A DNA stretch of 49,958 nt from Thioploca sp. (GTDB taxonomy: Bacteria; Pseudomonadota; Gammaproteobacteria; Beggiatoales; Beggiatoaceae), in contig JAAUSR010000037.1 of NCBI GenBank assembly GCA_012032555.1, positions 1 through 49,958 on the forward strand, given 5' to 3'. The translations under genes were made by a program, and so were the position numbers. Within the stretch, counting starts at the first letter, position 1. Each line of letters starts with the position of its first letter. Shown here in pieces: positions 37,545 to 49,813 of this stretch. The notes below the pieces were generated by a model that searched no databases, was not told the DNA's origin, and saw only the letters and a program-made list of their open reading frames with translations.

Positions 37545-40500
37545 ATGAGTGATTTTCCTTATCCTGGCTTACGCCCGTTTCACCGCCATGAAACGGATAT
37601 TTTTTTCGGACGTGAAGAAGCCACTGATCAACTTATCGAAAAATTAGGCCAAACTCGCTTTATGGCTGTGGTTGGTCCGTCAGGATGTGGTAAATCTTCA
37701 TTGGTACGTACCGGCTTGTTGGCGGGTTTAGAAGCCGGATTTTTAGCCACAGCGGGTGTCCATTGGCGAATTGCAGAATTACGCCCCGGTAATCACCCGT
37801 TTGCGCGCTTAGCTGAAGCTTTATTAGTCGATAAAGCCATCGGTACTGAATATACTTCACCTTTTACCGAACTCGCTGAGGCTATGGCCTTCCTTCATGC
37901 GCAATTACGGCGAGGACCACTGAGTTTAGTGGAAGTTCTCCGCGAAACCACTTTACCAAAACAGACTAATCTGCTACTGGTGGTTGATCAATTTGAAGAA
38001 ATTTTTCGCTACTATTATCAAGGTGCCGCTAATGAAGCGGCTGCTTTTGTTGCCTTACTGTTAACGAGTAGCCAACTATCAGCACAGCACATTCAAGTGT
38101 ATGTCATTATCACTATGCGTTCTGATTTTATTGGCGACTGTGCTTTATTTTACGATTTACCTGAAGCGATCAACCAAGGATTATTTCTTACTCCACGATT
38201 AACACGCGAACAATTACGTGAAGCCATTGAAGCACCAGCCAATGTTTTCGATGGCGAAATTGAACCCATTTTAATTAACCGGTTACTTAATGATGCCGGC
38301 AATGATCCGGATCAATTACCATTATTACAACATGCTCTCATGCGTATGTGGCACCTCGCTCAGGCTGAAAAATCCCCCAATAAAATGTTGACAACTCAAC
38401 ATTATGAAGCCATTGGTGGTTTAGCTGAAGCGCTGTCTCGGCATGCAGACGAAGCTTATGCTGAATTAAATCCACTTGAGCAAAAAATAGCTGAAATCCT
38501 GTTTTGTAATTTAACCGACCGCAGTAAAGGACTTCAATATACGCGTCGCCCAATCCCATTAGAAGCCGTCGCGCTCCAAGCCAATGTTTCCTGGCAACAA
38601 CTGGCTCAAGTGGTAGAGATTTTTCGCCAACCCGGCCGAAATTTCTTAACCCCGGTCGTGGGTAACCCGTTAACGCCAGAAAGTATATTAGATATCAGTC
38701 ATGAAAGCCTCATTCGTCAATGGCAACGCTTAAATCAATGGACTAAAATCGAAGCCGAAACGGCTGAACTTTATCAACGTTTAGAAGACAGTGCCCGTCG
38801 TTGGCAGGAGCACCGAGCGGAATTATGGTCTGGGATTGAACTCGAAATTGCGTTAACTTGGCGTCAACAACATCAACCCACCGCTAACTGGGCTAAACGT
38901 TACGGTGAAGCCGCTGGCCAATATTTTGACTTAGCCATGCAGTTTTTAGATAACAGCCAAGCTAAACAACAAGAAGAGCTTAAACAGGCAGAATTAGCCC
39001 AACAACGGCAAGCTAAACAAGAACTTCACCAAGCTAAACTAAAAGCCAAAGCGCTGTTAGCCGGTAAAACTGCAACTTGGGCAATATTGGGACTTATTAT
39101 CACTACCACACTCGCTTTATGGGGTTACTGGGAACGAAATAAAGCCTTATTAGCTAGGCAACAAGCAGCACAATCTGAAAGTGCTCGTACTCATAGCCTG
39201 TTCGAATTACAGTTAACCCATGCAGCTTTATTAGCACGCGATGAAGATTACGCAGCGGCGAAAGTTATTTTAAAAGCGACTCGGGAACTCGATAATCAAA
39301 TTCCAACCGGTCGTCGTTACGCACGTAATTTAGTGGCTTGGTTTTGTGAGCTACGTGGTGAAGCACCGCAACAAATCTATGCCGGTGCTGGTGCACAACT
39401 CCTTACGGTAGCGATTAGCCCGAATGGACAAACTTTAGCCGCCGCTGGTGAGAAAGGGACTCTAGTCTTATTTGATGTGGCGACGGGTCATCCACTTCAA
39501 CATTTACAACGGCATAGCGAACATGTCTTAGCGGCCCTATTTCACCCGCAGCAACCCTGGCTTATCAGTGCGGGTAAAGATCAACGAATCATCATTTGGT
39601 CACTGACGACAGGCAAACCCATTTTAGAATGGCAAGCACCTTATCAAGTTAATGCTTTAGCTTTAAGTCCGGATGGGACACAATTGGCCAGTGGTGGAAC
39701 CGATAATCATATCATTTTGTGGGATCCACGAACTGGGCAAAGCTTAAAAACTTTCAAAGCGATTGAGGGAAAAGAAGTAGCCATTAACGATTTAGCTTTT
39801 GATCCACAAGGTCACTGGTTAGTTAGCGCAACCAGTGATAATACTGCCACTTTATGGAATTTAGTTAAACGTAAGAAAATACGTACTTTTATTGGACATA
39901 CTGGAGAAATCTGGGGTGTGACCTTTAACCCTCAAGGTAATTTATTGGCTACGAGTAGTGATGATAAAAGCGTTAGATTATGGGATGTGGCAACCGGAGA
40001 AACATTACGGGTATTACGTGGTCATCAAAATGCAGTTTTCAGCGCTTATTTTATCGATAATGGCCATTATTTGGTTTCAGCTAGTCAAGACCGTACTTTA
40101 CGCATATGGGATACCGACAGTGGTACCAGTTTAAGGGTTTTACAAGGACATACCGCTGGGGTTACTGGGTTAACCATTTGGAAAAAATCTATTTTCAGTG
40201 CCAGCTATGACGGGCAAATTATGCGTTGGCAAGCGGTATTACCTTATCAAACCCTGGTCAAATTACCTCATGAGCCAGCTTCAACTGCTATTGCACCAGA
40301 TGGTAAACATGTTGCGGTTGGTTTTGCCAATGGCACGCTGCGATGGTATTCCTTACCAACGGTTCAATTACAATGGGAAAATAAACAAGCCCATACCAAA
40401 GATATTCAACGGCTCAATTTTAATGCCACCGGCAATTTATTAGCTTCAGCTAGCTTTGATAATACCGCTAAACTCTGGCAAGTCAGAGAAAATCAGTTAA

Positions 40501-41162
40501 CTGAACAACAAGTCTTTGAAGGACATCAAGGTGCTATTTATGCGCTAGATTTTTCTCCTGATAGTCGTATTTTGGCTACAGCTAGTTATGATAGTCAGTT
40601 TGGCTTATTTACTGTTGGTAGTCATCAACAACGCTTTCATAAGGCACATAATGGACTGACTTATTCGGTTAATTTTGATCGCAGTGGGACTCGTTTATTA
40701 ACGGCTGGAGAAGATGGCTATACCCGATTGTGGAATATTGATAAAGAACCGCCGATATTGTTACAAACTTTTCCTAAAGCTCAAGATCAAGTGATGTGGG
40801 CCAACTTCAGCCCCGATAACCAACAAGTTGCTACTGTCGGCCGAGACTGGTTAGTTCATGTTTATTCAGTCAAAGATAATCAAGCTCGTCATCGTCTCGT
40901 TGGACATGAACAAACCATTCTACGAGCCAGTTTCACCCCAGATGCTCAACAAATGGTAACAGTAGGCGGCGATGCCACGGTACGTTTCTGGGACTTAATT
41001 AATGACAGAGAATTGTTTACTTTATTCCTACCCACTTCAGTTGAAGAAGGCTCACCATTATGGGATTTTGATTTCCGATGTATTGGTCAAGATTGTTGGG
41101 TAGCTGTTCCACTAACACAAGGTAAATTAGTGCTTTATCAATTAAAAGCCATTTATAAATAA
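37545..41162 (+). CDS. STAND NTPase with membrane segment and 14 WD40 repeats
   Basis: 1205 residues. The N terminus YPGLRPFHRHETDIFFGRE is the hallmark of nSTAND1 modules, followed by Walker A GPSGCGKSS (about 44-52) and Walker B LLLVVDQFEEIF. A winged-helix/helical region ends in LDISHESLIRQWQRL. A charged coiled segment precedes one membrane helix (about 508-528, WAILGLIITTTLALWGYW). Then about 14 WD40 repeats run from 620 to the end (for example LLATSSDDKSVRLWDV), enough for two seven-bladed propellers. STAND proteins oligomerise on ligand recognition by the repeats. Coupled to a TIR gene, it fits a receptor of an NLR-like conflict system. Confidence 0.9.
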   Translation: MSDFPYPGLRPFHRHETDIFFGREEATDQLIEKLGQTRFMAVVGPSGCGKSSLVRTGLLAGLEAGFLATAGVHWRIAELRPGNHPFARLAEALLVDKAIGTEYTSPFTELAEAMAFLHAQLRRGPLSLVEVLRETTLPKQTNLLLVVDQFEEIFRYYYQGAANEAAAFVALLLTSSQLSAQHIQVYVIITMRSDFIGDCALFYDLPEAINQGLFLTPRLTREQLREAIEAPANVFDGEIEPILINRLLNDAGNDPDQLPLLQHALMRMWHLAQAEKSPNKMLTTQHYEAIGGLAEALSRHADEAYAELNPLEQKIAEILFCNLTDRSKGLQYTRRPIPLEAVALQANVSWQQLAQVVEIFRQPGRNFLTPVVGNPLTPESILDISHESLIRQWQRLNQWTKIEAETAELYQRLEDSARRWQEHRAELWSGIELEIALTWRQQHQPTANWAKRYGEAAGQYFDLAMQFLDNSQAKQQEELKQAELAQQRQAKQELHQAKLKAKALLAGKTATWAILGLIITTTLALWGYWERNKALLARQQAAQSESARTHSLFELQLTHAALLARDEDYAAAKVILKATRELDNQIPTGRRYARNLVAWFCELRGEAPQQIYAGAGAQLLTVAISPNGQTLAAAGEKGTLVLFDVATGHPLQHLQRHSEHVLAALFHPQQPWLISAGKDQRIIIWSLTTGKPILEWQAPYQVNALALSPDGTQLASGGTDNHIILWDPRTGQSLKTFKAIEGKEVAINDLAFDPQGHWLVSATSDNTATLWNLVKRKKIRTFIGHTGEIWGVTFNPQGNLLATSSDDKSVRLWDVATGETLRVLRGHQNAVFSAYFIDNGHYLVSASQDRTLRIWDTDSGTSLRVLQGHTAGVTGLTIWKKSIFSASYDGQIMRWQAVLPYQTLVKLPHEPASTAIAPDGKHVAVGFANGTLRWYSLPTVQLQWENKQAHTKDIQRLNFNATGNLLASASFDNTAKLWQVRENQLTEQQVFEGHQGAIYALDFSPDSRILATASYDSQFGLFTVGSHQQRFHKAHNGLTYSVNFDRSGTRLLTAGEDGYTRLWNIDKEPPILLQTFPKAQDQVMWANFSPDNQQVATVGRDWLVHVYSVKDNQARHRLVGHEQTILRASFTPDAQQMVTVGGDATVRFWDLINDRELFTLFLPTSVEEGSPLWDFDFRCIGQDCWVAVPLTQGKLVLYQLKAIYK

Positions 41163-43113: not shown

Positions 43114-43240
43114 GCTAAATCCTCTTTCTGGTTATTAGCCGATTTCAAGAGTTGAACTTGATAAAATTAAATTAATATAACATACTAACTGGTATTAGTA
43201 ACTTATTACCTAAAAGTGATAAAAGTATAACTGACACAAG

Positions 43241-43348
43241 ATGATTAGAATGATTTTCGTATTTCATTTCACACTTTGGCAACTGGAGTGGCGATTTATT
43301 GCTAATCCAGTTGTTTCTGTCTGTGGAGAAGAAATAGTTAATCATTAG
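43241..43348 (+). CDS. Leader peptide of an attenuator, aromatic-rich
   Basis: 35 codons from ATG 43241 to TAG 43346-43348. The peptide starts MIRMIFVFHF, has TLWQLEWRF in its middle (Trp codons at 43277 and 43289) and SVCGEE near its end. Aromatic content is high (Phe at 6, 8, 10 and 19; Trp at 13 and 17). The codons overlap the two upstream hairpin strands of the attenuator described next, the arrangement seen in amino-acid biosynthesis leaders. The ribosome site is weak, and an ATG at 43250 is an alternative start. Too short for homology. Confidence 0.55.
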   Translation: MIRMIFVFHFTLWQLEWRFIANPVVSVCGEEIVNH

Positions 43349-43413
43349 TTAATCAATTTCATTTTCATATTTTCTTATTAAGGCCACAGACACCCAGTCA
43401 GTGGCCTTTTTTT
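43280..43413 (+). promoter_or_regulatory. Transcription attenuator upstream of a DMT exporter
   Basis: Hairpin A: CAACTGGA (43280-43287) with TCCAGTTG (43306-43313), 8 bp perfect. Antiterminator: TGTCTGTGG (43318-43326) with CCACAGACA (43384-43392), 9 bp perfect. Terminator: AGGCCAC (43381-43387) with GTGGCCT (43401-43407), extended inward by GAC/GTC after an A-A mismatch. The antiterminator and terminator share 43384-43392, so they exclude each other. The leader ORF covers hairpin A and the left antiterminator arm. A ribosome stalled near the Trp codons would free that arm; one reaching the stop would cover it. The exporter ATG is only 24 bp past the T-run. Confidence 0.7.
43381..43413 (+). 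terminator. Rho-independent terminator of the attenuator
   Basis: Stem AGGCCAC/GTGGCCT, inner GAC/GTC pair, five-base loop ACCCA, then seven T (43407-43413). It directly precedes the ribosome site (TAGGAAC) of the DMT gene and follows no complete gene on this strand, so it acts on the leader transcript. Confidence 0.85.
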
Positions 43414-43436
43414 ATGATCTTTAGGAACAGAAAAAA

Positions 43437-44321
43437 ATGTTTATACCACTGGCTTATATTAGCGTTATCATGATTTGGTCGACCACACCATTGGCCATTA
43501 AATGGAGTGGCGAAAACGGCAGTTTTTTATTTGGTGTTAGTGGGCGTATGGCATTAGGTGCTTTGTTAACGCTACTAATTATTGCTCTAAGACGGATAGA
43601 GTTTCCTTGGCATACTACCGCTCGTCGTTGTTACTTGATAGTGAGTTTATCTCTTTATGGTTCGATGATGTCGACTTATTGGGCAGCCCAATTTATTCCT
43701 TCTGGCTTGATCTCCGTTTTATTTGGAATTTCGCCGATTATAACTAGCATACTCACGGTCATGCTATCCAGAGAACGCCATTTCAGTCTTAATAGATGGA
43801 TTGGTATGTTACTTGGCGTCATTGGACTCGTTTTAATTTTTAACACCGAATTAAGTTTAAATAAAGAAAGTATCAAAGGGTTATTAGCTATTTTATTCGC
43901 GGTATTTTTACATTCACTCAGTGCCGTTCTTATCAAACAAACGAACACGGTTCTTTCACCTTTAGTCATGACGGCCGGCGGTTTATTAATGGCTTCATTA
44001 TTTTATGGGATAACTTGGTTATGTCTTGGAGAAACGATACCCCATTCCTTATCCTGGCGGGCGATTTTAGCCGTGATTTACTTAGGTCTATTTGGTTCAG
44101 TGATCGGGTTTATACTTTATTACTCGCTATTGAAGCAAATTGAGGCGACTAAAGTCGCACTAATTACTTTAATTACGCCCATTATGGCACTATTATTAGG
44201 GCAAAGCTTGAATAATGAGATTATTCACCCAACGATGTGGATAGGTACCAGTATTGTTATAAGTGGATTAGCATTATACCAATGGGGTGAACGTATCAGA
44301 AAGTATACTCACTTCCATTAA
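43437..44321 (+). CDS. DMT-superfamily (EamA) exporter
   Basis: 294 residues with ten predicted membrane helices in two EamA halves: VIMIWSTTPLAIKWSGE at the start, FIPSGLISVLFGISPIITSILT, IGMLLGVIGLVLIF, then the second half with YYSLLKQIEATKVALITLITPIMALLLG and WIGTSIVISGLALY. Members export amino acids or metabolites; YddG of this superfamily exports aromatic amino acids. The upstream leader with Phe and Trp codons makes an aromatic substrate a testable guess. The ATG follows TAGGAAC by 9-10 bp. Confidence 0.88.
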   Translation: MFIPLAYISVIMIWSTTPLAIKWSGENGSFLFGVSGRMALGALLTLLIIALRRIEFPWHTTARRCYLIVSLSLYGSMMSTYWAAQFIPSGLISVLFGISPIITSILTVMLSRERHFSLNRWIGMLLGVIGLVLIFNTELSLNKESIKGLLAILFAVFLHSLSAVLIKQTNTVLSPLVMTAGGLLMASLFYGITWLCLGETIPHSLSWRAILAVIYLGLFGSVIGFILYYSLLKQIEATKVALITLITPIMALLLGQSLNNEIIHPTMWIGTSIVISGLALYQWGERIRKYTHFH

Positions 44322-46242: not shown

Positions 46243-47664
46243 TTATTTCCAGAGTTGTTTAAACCTGCGCCGTAGATCAACTGACTCATCAACTTTACCA
46301 TCTGCATTGACGTTGATAAGTGCAAGCGGCGCATAACGATGTCCATGGTCAAGCGGTTCTTGAGCAAGTGGTTCATTTCCATCACGCGGCCATTCTACAT
46401 CACCGGTAGCTGTCCGAGCTGGAATCCACCACCAGTCACCGCTTCGGAACCAAACTTTACCTTTCTCCTGAACAAATTGAATCTGTATACCATCTTCTAG
46501 TTCAAGATCTTTTCCCGCTTCTACCTTTAATGCACCGCCACACTTTTCGTCACCCTGATGATCCCAACGACGCAAAAAAGGATGCTTTGACGAATTTCTT
46601 TCAAATTCAGAAGTACCAGATAGGGTTACTTTCATATTAACAGGGTCAACAGAAATCACTTGCAATAAATCTTGCGTTTTGCCTTGAAGTTCATAGTCAT
46701 CATCCACGAATTCTACCCAGTCACCTTCTTTCAGTCCGCAGCGAGCATCCCGACCGAGATGTTCCAATGTCACCATTGCCTTGCTCACAGAAAGAATTGG
46801 AAAAACGACCGAACCATTTTCACGTGACCATTTGAAGGTAGCCTCTCCATACCCACCAGATTTATGAATTTCCACCCGATAAAGTTGGTTCTCCGCCCCA
46901 CGGTAACGGTTTTGTGGAGAGATCAGACAGGGTTTATCTGTCTTATCCACCATCATTGCTTGTGCTTTGAGCAAGCCAGTGCTTTTCTTTACATCATTCT
47001 TTAACTTTTCCAATAAAGTTTCAAAGATCCGGTAATTCGTTTTTATGGGTAAGTATCGTTTTTCTGCACTTTGCCAATCTGATAGATCTAATGTCTCAGT
47101 TCGTATCGGTTGTTCAACAGATTTTTTAGGAACTACTTCTTCAAATATGGTGTCACTCAATGGAATAACTTTCACCTGCCACACAGTTTTTATCCGCGTA
47201 GCCGTATCCGCCCCGTTTAGTGCCACTTCGCGGATAGAATCGTCTTGCACATTCGTTATGTGCCGAAACCAGACATGGAGGTAAACCAAATAATTGGTGT
47301 TACCTTGTTTTATTCCCTCGCCCTCTGGTATTGGATAATCTTTTTGATTAGTAAAAGCGCAATCTTCATCGTTTTCACACATGATGCCACCGACATAATA
47401 GCGCCCACTTCGAATTATAAAATCACGTGGAATAGTCTCCTCAGTATTGCTGCTATCTTGGTTTGGACGTGGTTCTATTAAAAAATCGTCATTTGGCCCA
47501 CCATGCTCACCTATCAAATTTTCAACCAGCTTTTGCAAATTGGACCATTGGATCATAGCCTGCTCGTTCCAATCCGCATCCAATTGGACTCTCCCTTGTT
47601 GCATGAGTACAAGAGAATAGTGGTTGCGTTCATGATATGACATACGTGAAAAATCGCCTTTCAT
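46243..47664 (-). CDS. DUF6519-type tail protein of a contractile injection system
   Basis: 473 residues from ATG 47664, 6 nt after AGGAGA; a longer upstream frame runs back into the neighbouring gene and is spurious. The N terminus KGDFSRMSYHERNHYSLVLM followed by QQGRVQLDADWNEQ is the DUF6519 signature found in extracellular contractile injection and phage-tail-like clusters. Later segments include GRYYVGGIMCEND, FKWSRENGSVVFPI and a C-terminal part with HGHRYAPLALINV. It is likely a baseplate or fibre-associated protein. It is transcribed together with the gene upstream (10-bp gap). Confidence 0.75.
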   Translation of the reverse strand: MKGDFSRMSYHERNHYSLVLMQQGRVQLDADWNEQAMIQWSNLQKLVENLIGEHGGPNDDFLIEPRPNQDSSNTEETIPRDFIIRSGRYYVGGIMCENDEDCAFTNQKDYPIPEGEGIKQGNTNYLVYLHVWFRHITNVQDDSIREVALNGADTATRIKTVWQVKVIPLSDTIFEEVVPKKSVEQPIRTETLDLSDWQSAEKRYLPIKTNYRIFETLLEKLKNDVKKSTGLLKAQAMMVDKTDKPCLISPQNRYRGAENQLYRVEIHKSGGYGEATFKWSRENGSVVFPILSVSKAMVTLEHLGRDARCGLKEGDWVEFVDDDYELQGKTQDLLQVISVDPVNMKVTLSGTSEFERNSSKHPFLRRWDHQGDEKCGGALKVEAGKDLELEDGIQIQFVQEKGKVWFRSGDWWWIPARTATGDVEWPRDGNEPLAQEPLDHGHRYAPLALINVNADGKVDESVDLRRRFKQLWK

Positions 47665-47674
47665 CTTCATTCTC

Positions 47675-49813
47675 CTAACTTGCGTAAATGATTCCAGTTT
47701 CCATTCCAGCGGGGGTATATTCTTCAAGACGAGTTTGTAAATTAGCTTCCCGCTGCGGTTGAAACAAATGATGAAAAACCCCCATTTCTGATTCATCCTC
47801 TGCACCGCGTTTGATTTCTTCTGCGCAGCACCTTGCTAATTGACAGTAGGCCGGTGTACCGTAATGGACACTGTTAAATTGAGGAACAACTCGTGATTGC
47901 TCACGTTGTTGGGCATCAGTCAGTTTATTTTGATCCACTGCAGCAGTGACTTCCTTAGCTTGCTCTATGACGAGATCGGGCTGACAACGATAACGACGTG
48001 GTGTGCGCGATCCAGGCGTCACATAACAAAAGCGCAAGCAACCTCGTTGGCGGCGGGCAACTTGAATTAAACCCATGAAAATGCTATTTTCAGCCAGATC
48101 GATGGCGTGTGTATGAATCTGCCCAAACACGGTACTGCACTTGAGCGTGACGACAGCGTGCGCAAAAACCGAGGAGGAACGAGGTGGTGCGCTGAGTGCG
48201 TGATGATTAGGGTGAGTCGCATCCAAGATGCTGTCACTGATAGAGATAGCAACTGGATCGGTGTTAACCTCATCTTGGCTCACTTGGATAGCCCCTATAA
48301 TACTTTGTTCAATTCGGATGCGCGCTTCGGTATTTATAAGCTTAAGGCTGGGTTCAACGGGTTGACAGGGTTTGCAATCAGAAGAGATCTCCCAACCAGG
48401 GACCAGTGTAGTGTGACGAATAACCACCTCAACCATTTTACCTTCAATCCGAATCCCCCGCCCGCTAATCAACAAACCATCCAAAATAAAACAACTTCCC
48501 GTTGCACCAGTAATCCTTAAGTCGTCCAGTCCGCTGGTTTTCCAATCCAATAAACGGATGACTGGACGAGTACGATTAGCAGCGCGGAGTTGCAGGGTTT
48601 GATTTTCTTTTAGCTTGATATTGATCGGTTCTACATAGACACCGCTATCAATAATCTCAATGATGGCATGATCTTTCTGATCCACTTGCCATTGTTTAAG
48701 TGCTTCAGTGATATTTGGTATTGTCTCTTTTTCGCCCACCCGGTAGATGCGGACATCAGCCGGTTGCGGGAGAGAACGTTGATATTCGCCACCTCCAATG
48801 TTGGCGCTGAACCCATAATGATAATAAACCCAGACATTCTGTTTTGGGGGAGCTGTAGACGGAAAGGCAATACGTCCTAATTCGGGATCGATGGCCACTT
48901 GATTTTTAGTAGGTAAATATTGCCAGTTGCTTAGATCAGCGACAATGATATTTTCTGGTAGTATTGGTTGCTCTGCACTATCAATCCAAATCTGTAAGCT
49001 CTTATCTTCTCCATAATAATCCGTCTTATACAATTCAAAAGCCCGCCGCCGGATGGGTGTAGGGACATTCAATTCGCTGGCTATCTCCGTTGGATCCCCT
49101 TCAGGCTTAGGATGCGTATAAAGTGGGGTGTCATTGCTCAACACACTGAAACTATAGCAATGTTCTCCAATGGATTCTAAGCAGTAAGCCGGTGTTTGGG
49201 TGACAGAATAAGATTTTAAACGCCAAACAAATAGACCGACATTGGGAATATTGTAGTCACCTGGGGTATGATGAGAAGTGATATGGCGCACGTTGACCGT
49301 GTGTGCTAACTCATCAAAAGGACCGTTCAAACGATCCAGCGCATCCCCATAACGTAAATCGACGGTACGGCCACGCATGAGTCGCACATGATTGACGTGT
49401 TGAGTGAATCCTAACAATCGGTAAAACTCTACAACGCGGGCTGGCCAACCAGCAACATCCTTAGCAAGCAGTTCTAATACAGCTAAGGTGCCCTTGCGTT
49501 GCCGATAACGAATCGTATTGGCGACTTCGCGACGTGGAATAAGAATTTTATGATGTACTGTGGTACGCTCTTCTGATTCTTCTCCTTCGTGAATGGGCGT
49601 ATAACCAACCAAGTCCCCAATATAAGGTACAACCCAATCTTGACAAGTTTCAATGAACCAATTTTCGTAGAGTTGTGCGATATCAGATTCCACTACGTTG
49701 ACTTGTTCGGTGATGATTTGCAACAAGGCTCGTAGTGGTTGACCTTGTTCAGCATCACGCTGACGATAAATAACTGGCAGGAGTTCGTATAACCGATCTA
49801 ATGAATCATTCAT
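47675..49813 (-). CDS. Baseplate/tail protein with P2 gpI-like N terminus and beta-helix
   Basis: 712 residues. The N terminus LYELLPVIYRQRDAEQGQPL plus VVPYIGDLVGYTP resembles P2 gpI-type baseplate wedge proteins, followed by TIRYRQRKGTLAVLELLAKDVAGWPARVVEFY. From about 370 a parallel beta-helix-like region appears (IIEIIDSGVYVEPINIKL, FILDGLLISGRGIRIEG, AISISDSIL and a Cys-rich YCQLARCCAEE end). This architecture belongs to extracellular contractile injection systems. It starts the visible operon with DUF6519; the sheath, tube and spike genes would lie to the right of the window. Confidence 0.8.
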   Translation of the reverse strand: MNDSLDRLYELLPVIYRQRDAEQGQPLRALLQIITEQVNVVESDIAQLYENWFIETCQDWVVPYIGDLVGYTPIHEGEESEERTTVHHKILIPRREVANTIRYRQRKGTLAVLELLAKDVAGWPARVVEFYRLLGFTQHVNHVRLMRGRTVDLRYGDALDRLNGPFDELAHTVNVRHITSHHTPGDYNIPNVGLFVWRLKSYSVTQTPAYCLESIGEHCYSFSVLSNDTPLYTHPKPEGDPTEIASELNVPTPIRRRAFELYKTDYYGEDKSLQIWIDSAEQPILPENIIVADLSNWQYLPTKNQVAIDPELGRIAFPSTAPPKQNVWVYYHYGFSANIGGGEYQRSLPQPADVRIYRVGEKETIPNITEALKQWQVDQKDHAIIEIIDSGVYVEPINIKLKENQTLQLRAANRTRPVIRLLDWKTSGLDDLRITGATGSCFILDGLLISGRGIRIEGKMVEVVIRHTTLVPGWEISSDCKPCQPVEPSLKLINTEARIRIEQSIIGAIQVSQDEVNTDPVAISISDSILDATHPNHHALSAPPRSSSVFAHAVVTLKCSTVFGQIHTHAIDLAENSIFMGLIQVARRQRGCLRFCYVTPGSRTPRRYRCQPDLVIEQAKEVTAAVDQNKLTDAQQREQSRVVPQFNSVHYGTPAYCQLARCCAEEIKRGAEDESEMGVFHHLFQPQREANLQTRLEEYTPAGMETGIIYAS

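Follow-up and report, generated by a model that had tools for sequence, protein, structure and literature searches.

In Corynebacterium and Streptomyces, trp leaders have been described that carry two or three consecutive Trp codons (PMC1262725), and sensitivity is described as falling when the share of regulatory codons is low (PMC1183508). The rnTrpL transcript of Sinorhizobium meliloti is reported to begin at the ATG of its leader open reading frame (ORF) (PMC7298713). For TnaC, the residues W12, D16 and P24 are given as required (PMC3902921), and in Bacillus subtilis the translation of ycbK, described as encoding a 'putative efflux protein', is stated to be blocked by tryptophan-bound TRAP (PMC3971595, PMC11255114). 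Among open-licence papers, seen partly as top-ranked matches, no earlier report was found that places a Trp attenuator in front of an EamA/DMT gene. The ycbK product is an EamA-type protein, and its gene lies in an operon with a T-box.

The stretch of DNA analysed here (the window) comprises 49,958 nucleotides of a Thioploca sp. contig (JAAUSR010000037.1). It carries the gene of an EamA/DMT transporter (43437..44321, + strand, 294 aa) with two EamA domains (PF00892, E 5.1e-33, two stretches). Upstream of this gene, on the same strand, lies what we consider, at a probability of roughly 85%, to be a ribosome-mediated transcription attenuator with Trp as the control codon, usually in the form of one UGG. 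The assignment was made from sequence and folding models: it draws on a conserved leader, a conserved UGG, alternative pairings and the placement of the UGG relative to a modelled switch point. An earlier note had proposed a leader-peptide attenuator at this place, and conservation in two gene sets together with the folding model bears the proposal out.

The transporter reached no NCBIfam equivalog cut-off (TIGR00950: 92 bits, cut-off 230.2), and a search for PDB relatives by sequence gave none at E<=0.01. Against the model of YddG, the aromatic amino-acid exporter, it scored far below the NCBIfam cut-off (32.2 bits, cut-off 300). The divergent neighbour of the transporter gene encodes an LD-carboxypeptidase. 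Neighbours were surveyed at 80 loci (with full 10-kb flanks for part of these), and inspection by eye of the 25 neighbour clusters that recur most often revealed no trp genes. Elsewhere, the window encodes an nSTAND1 NTPase of 1205 aa with WD40 repeats (37545-41162), and a DUF6519 protein beside a protein without Pfam match (46243-49813), which we take to resemble part of a phage-tail-like injection system.

The leader ORF (MIFVFHFTLWQLEWRFIANPVVSVCGEEIVNH) was placed at 43250..43348 (32 codons + stop; this and all other features of the leader region are on the + strand). The note had started it at 43241; that ATG is a CTG in the sister genome (G001), whereas the ATG at 43250 is kept there and the ORF has counterparts in relatives, so the shorter frame was used. 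Codon 10 (43277..43279) is the putative control codon, UGG, and codon 14 (43289..43291) is a second Trp codon. The three stems claimed for this region were all found at the expected places. Hairpin A (43280..43313; arms 43280-43287/43306-43313, 8 bp) is located between the control codon and segment 2. The antiterminator is a perfect helix of 9 bp between segment 2 (TGTCTGTGG, 43318..43326), its 5' arm, and segment 3 (43384..43392), its 3' arm. Segment 3 overlaps the 5' arm of the intrinsic terminator (43380..43413), which has an 8+3 bp stem (43380-43387/43401-43408, 8 bp, and GAC/GTC at 43389-43391/43397-43399) and seven T (43407-43413); the antiterminator and the terminator (43380-43408) are mutually exclusive. 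In the minimum free energy (MFE) fold of the ribosome-free RNA, segment 1 (43267..43274) is partially paired to 43323-43329, which covers the end of segment 2 and the bases 3' of it. The transporter gene starts with the ATG at 43437, 23 nt 3' of the T run, and is preceded by a Shine-Dalgarno-like AGGA (43423..43426).

The folding energy of the region 43241-43420 is -58.3 kcal/mol; that of shuffled sequences is -31.8 on average (sd 3.45; z -7.7; 0/200 equally stable). A simple consensus terminator scan with a loop limit of 3-8 nt left this terminator unlisted because of that limit, and gave a poorer candidate at 43272-43290. The Rfam covariance models gave 0 matches at gathering in the window, and at 17 related loci the 12 Rfam matches at E<=1 included no Trp leader and no T-box; the matches to leader regions were below gathering, and those in L009, L011 and L015 seem to fall on the terminators. 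In the sister genome, the UGG codon, the arm 43318-43326, the terminator stem and the T run are all identical to the window and the arms of hairpin A differ. In the alignment of Beggiatoaceae, nine of the ten rows show hardly any variation in the segment 2:3 pairing and the remaining row (L014) is misaligned there, so covariation within this family says little. The leader was found at one place in the window's own genome (G000) and at one in the sister genome; a search of other relatives gave six further matches (E 5e-4 to 0.008), one of which (G023) falls at the leader already known there. Near the leader start (43250-43279), several Beggiatoaceae share ATTTTCGTA with Escherichia coli trpL (AATTTTCGTACTGAAAGGTTGG); this likeness may reflect chance, convergence or common origin.

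These features suggest the following switch. When Trp-tRNA is ample, the ribosome would pass the UGG and cover segment 2, and with segment 2 covered the terminator would form and the transporter gene would be off. When charged tRNA-Trp is scarce, the ribosome would pause at the UGG and leave segment 2 free to pair with segment 3, and RNA polymerase would then proceed into the transporter gene. We infer from this arrangement that the ORF is translated, that the signal is charged tRNA-Trp and that the response runs in this direction.

The distribution of the leader was followed in two sets of orthologs. An ortholog was found at E<=1e-20 in 20/57 genomes (the window's own included), and a scan of GTDB contigs confirmed 584 stretches, of which the best 80 were used. 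The titles of these best 80 name Gammaproteobacteria, Mariprofundus, Gallionella/Sideroxydans and one Desulfuromonadales MAG, and the closest named relatives among them are Parabeggiatoa, Marithrix, Thiomargarita and Thiotrichaceae MAGs. The first set consisted of 92 distinct loci, after eight duplicates were taken out. ORFs were picked by promoter score, without regard to codon content. A terminator with an ORF was present at 78/92 loci, of which 72 were retained (promoter score >=8/12, <45 codons); six were dropped (L005, L044, L055, L074, L081, L083), and in five of these the called ORF contains W. No leader was called at 14 loci (L037 has no upstream DNA); five leaders missed by the detector were seen by eye (L023, L030, L047, L049, L085), and at the remaining loci without a call none was recognised by eye. 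For the second set, matches at E<=1e-40 were found in 111/369 genomes of the window's class (112 places), and 103 upstream regions were checked, leaving out the window, three first-set genes and five fragments. A leader was detected in 74/103 regions, 56 of them new relative to the first set, so that 128 leaders (72 + 56) with peptides of about 31 codons were pooled. The leader tracks the core of the subfamily: it is present in 62/74 regions with profile scores from about 340 bits upwards and in 12/29 with lower ones. Judged from these sequences, the element is real and widely conserved.

An in-frame UGG is present in 71/72 leaders of the first set and in 51/56 new leaders of the second (122/128 in total). 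In the other two frames after the start codon, UGG was found in 38/72 and 17/72 leaders of the first set and in 32/56 and 12/56 of the second (69/128 and 29/128 pooled). Most leaders contain a single Trp (one in 90, two in 30, three in 2, none in 6), and the 6/128 without W compare with 37.2 expected from W frequency (p ~2e-12). When one representative was taken per 60%-identity cluster (single linkage; one cluster contains 47 leaders), 1/65 lacked W (17.6 expected). The six leaders without W (L097, L145, L179, L196, L203, L219) count against the attenuator, as does the single UGG, which is few compared with trp leaders that have two or three. In L145, an Arg stands in place of the W of its close relative L067; the control codon may have been lost naturally, or the draft genome may be in error. 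The note had left the choice between Phe and Trp control open: Trp was upheld, and Phe was rejected, being absent from 40/128 leaders with 40.0 expected. The next most evenly spread residue is His (21/128 without, 37.8 expected, p 4e-4). His occurs in 107/128 leaders with a peak at codons 6-7 (41 of 154 His), and its evenness is perhaps a by-product of the pairing sequences.

The peptide itself drifts. Across 59 pairs of leaders, codon positions 1/2/3 had 368/351/394 substitutions, with no excess at the third position, and 27/79 internal indels were multiples of three; it follows that the codon is kept and the peptide, as far as these sequences tell, is not. This absence of a coding signature counts against the attenuator and would suit an RNA-only element, in which the ORF arises by chance, the UGG is retained for pairing, and regulation lies with the terminator alone or with a ligand. 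We regard such an element as very improbable, since UGG is in frame with the promoter-proximal ATG far more often than it occurs in the other two frames, the window has no Rfam match at gathering, and the ORF ends 21-84 nt before the terminator in 72/72 first-set leaders (for the second set, this spacing was a selection filter).

Most leaders appear to be so placed that they begin the transcript. The ATG lies 6-9 nt 3' of the -10 hexamer in 119/128 leaders and 6-7 nt in 99/128; the distance was preset to 2-14 nt (first set) or 4-10 nt (second), so that the informative part is the peak at 6-7 nt. AGGA, GGAG or GAGG occurs within -14 to -4 of the leader ATG in 2/128. From this spacing and the near-absence of Shine-Dalgarno motifs, leaderless mRNAs are predicted for most leaders, less clearly for the window and its sister genome. 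There, the candidate promoter (43158..43186; TTGATA-17-CATACT, with CATAAT in the sister genome) is a weak consensus match (9/12), sites of this quality numbering 3 in the region against 1.7 expected, and with it the 5' UTR could be about 57 nt long in both genomes; a second -10-like sequence, TATAAC, lies at 43226-43231. The weak promoter and the possible UTR of about 57 nt count against the attenuator.

The switch was modelled by folding the RNA 3' of a ribosome placed at each codon, once segment 3 was made and segment 4 was not yet. In the first set (n=71), the probability of segment 3 being paired with upstream RNA was 0.67-0.74 for ribosomes before the UGG, 0.71 when the UGG occupied the A site and 0.34 when the ribosome was five codons farther on; the second set (n=51) gave 0.65-0.68, 0.63 and 0.24, respectively. 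The positive control, E. coli trpL, gave 0.50 through the Trp pair and 0.02 within three codons after it in the same model. The pairing exceeded that of dinucleotide shuffles (0.71 vs 0.47 in the first set, 0.63 vs 0.45 in the second), and singly 29/71 and 14/51 leaders did so at the 5% level. The switch point was taken as the most downstream codon at which a stalled ribosome keeps the antiterminator arm exposed. The UGG lies at or before it in 71/71 leaders (53.5 expected for a random codon) and 50/51 (39.8), and 0-4 codons before it in 34/71 (11.3 expected) and 25/51 (8.2). Three results count against the attenuator: the segment 1:2 pairing, which in attenuators of the trpL kind brings about termination when translation is absent, is weak across the family (4/71 at the 5% level), the modelled value without a ribosome averages 0.53 in the first set (n=71) and 0.56 in the second (the window has 0.22, and the relatives L028 and L029 have 0.03), and the switch point shows no correlation with the position of the UGG across leaders (Spearman 0.05).

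The same model bears on a TnaC-like arrest, raised in the note, by which a Trp-bearing nascent peptide would sense high free tryptophan and open a tryptophan exporter. In its favour, the peptides have, like TnaC, one conserved Trp each, and an exporter that opens at excess Trp would be sensible, but D at +4 occurs in 1/122 leaders, P at +12 in 3/122 and both in 0/122, and a ribosome 12 codons past the W would hide segment 2 and promote termination (0.21 and 0.23 in the model), which leaves this explanation a very small chance. EamA proteins include drug exporters, and the macrolide-type arrest motif is basic-X-basic/Trp. An antibiotic-sensing leader that arrests at such a motif and opens a drug exporter would fit with these facts and with the Lys/Arg found two residues before the W in 31/122 leaders (25%, 17% background), but the basic residue is absent from three quarters of the leaders and in the first set W is the only residue that dominates a leader position, and we think it highly unlikely.

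With the Trp attenuator as the preferred reading, the sign of the response is that of starvation control. The note objected that an exporter of the amino acid in question would need the opposite sign; the point stands, and the transporter is most likely, judging by its leader, not a tryptophan exporter. Its simplest predicted role is the uptake of tryptophan or a precursor, followed by efflux of a compound blocking the charging of tRNA-Trp. The paradox would ease once the label 'exporter' were given up; of the ways out that the note offered, a different substrate and an importer survive, and TnaC-like arrest found no support. Genomes with the transporter make tryptophan: trpB was found in 109/111 of them and in 221/258 without it. 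In the window's own genome (G000:C21:18473-19621, outside the window), TrpB lies in an open frame of 627 codons (616 in G024), which exceeds most of those listed by about 200 codons and is possibly a fusion. Mtr/TyrP-type permeases (PF03222) co-occur with the transporter in 2 genomes (15.9 expected) and in 1 family (10.8 expected; the family total of 178 is approximate). These counts, confounded by ancestry and genome size, lean towards replacement of such permeases by the transporter.

As a tentative proposal, possible but on balance doubtful, the EamA subfamily (111/369 genomes) would be an inward transporter of tryptophan or a precursor, switched on under tRNA-Trp starvation by a mostly leaderless, mostly one-codon attenuator, replacing Mtr/TyrP-type permeases and forming a convergent counterpart of ycbK. 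With the leader, an uncharacterised transporter subfamily gains a testable physiological signal, and the usual exporter reading of EamA proteins is put in question. A minimal attenuator may need a promoter beside the AUG, one in-frame UGG and one alternative helix. The peptides are hardly alike and no Rfam family matched; the element was revealed by one codon that is spread evenly among otherwise divergent leaders.

Like E. coli trpL and other trp attenuators, the element has a leader ORF with UGG, an antiterminator/terminator switch and a similar drop in the model. It differs in having mostly one UGG (90/128; WW in 4/122), in being mostly leaderless, in controlling a transporter gene and not tryptophan biosynthesis genes, and in having no Rfam match. 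The best trpE-like genes of 20 genomes (the window's included) showed no WW leader and one terminator-like match (L107), in a survey that sought WW and not single-W leaders before genes below the NCBIfam trpE cut-off, some with uncertain starts and one (L113) with almost no upstream DNA. Most leaders share with S. meliloti rnTrpL/peTrpL a transcript start at the leader ATG, which is predicted here; that leader has several consecutive Trp codons and precedes trpE(G). TnaC (tnaCAB) is likewise a short peptide with one key Trp, but its Asp and Pro determinants are missing here and the sign is opposite. B. subtilis ycbK, as far as its descriptions cited above go, is similarly a putative efflux gene that is off when tryptophan is plentiful. 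It is controlled by TRAP, with a T-box on the operon, and not by a leader peptide of this kind, and the likeness drawn here is one of regulation.
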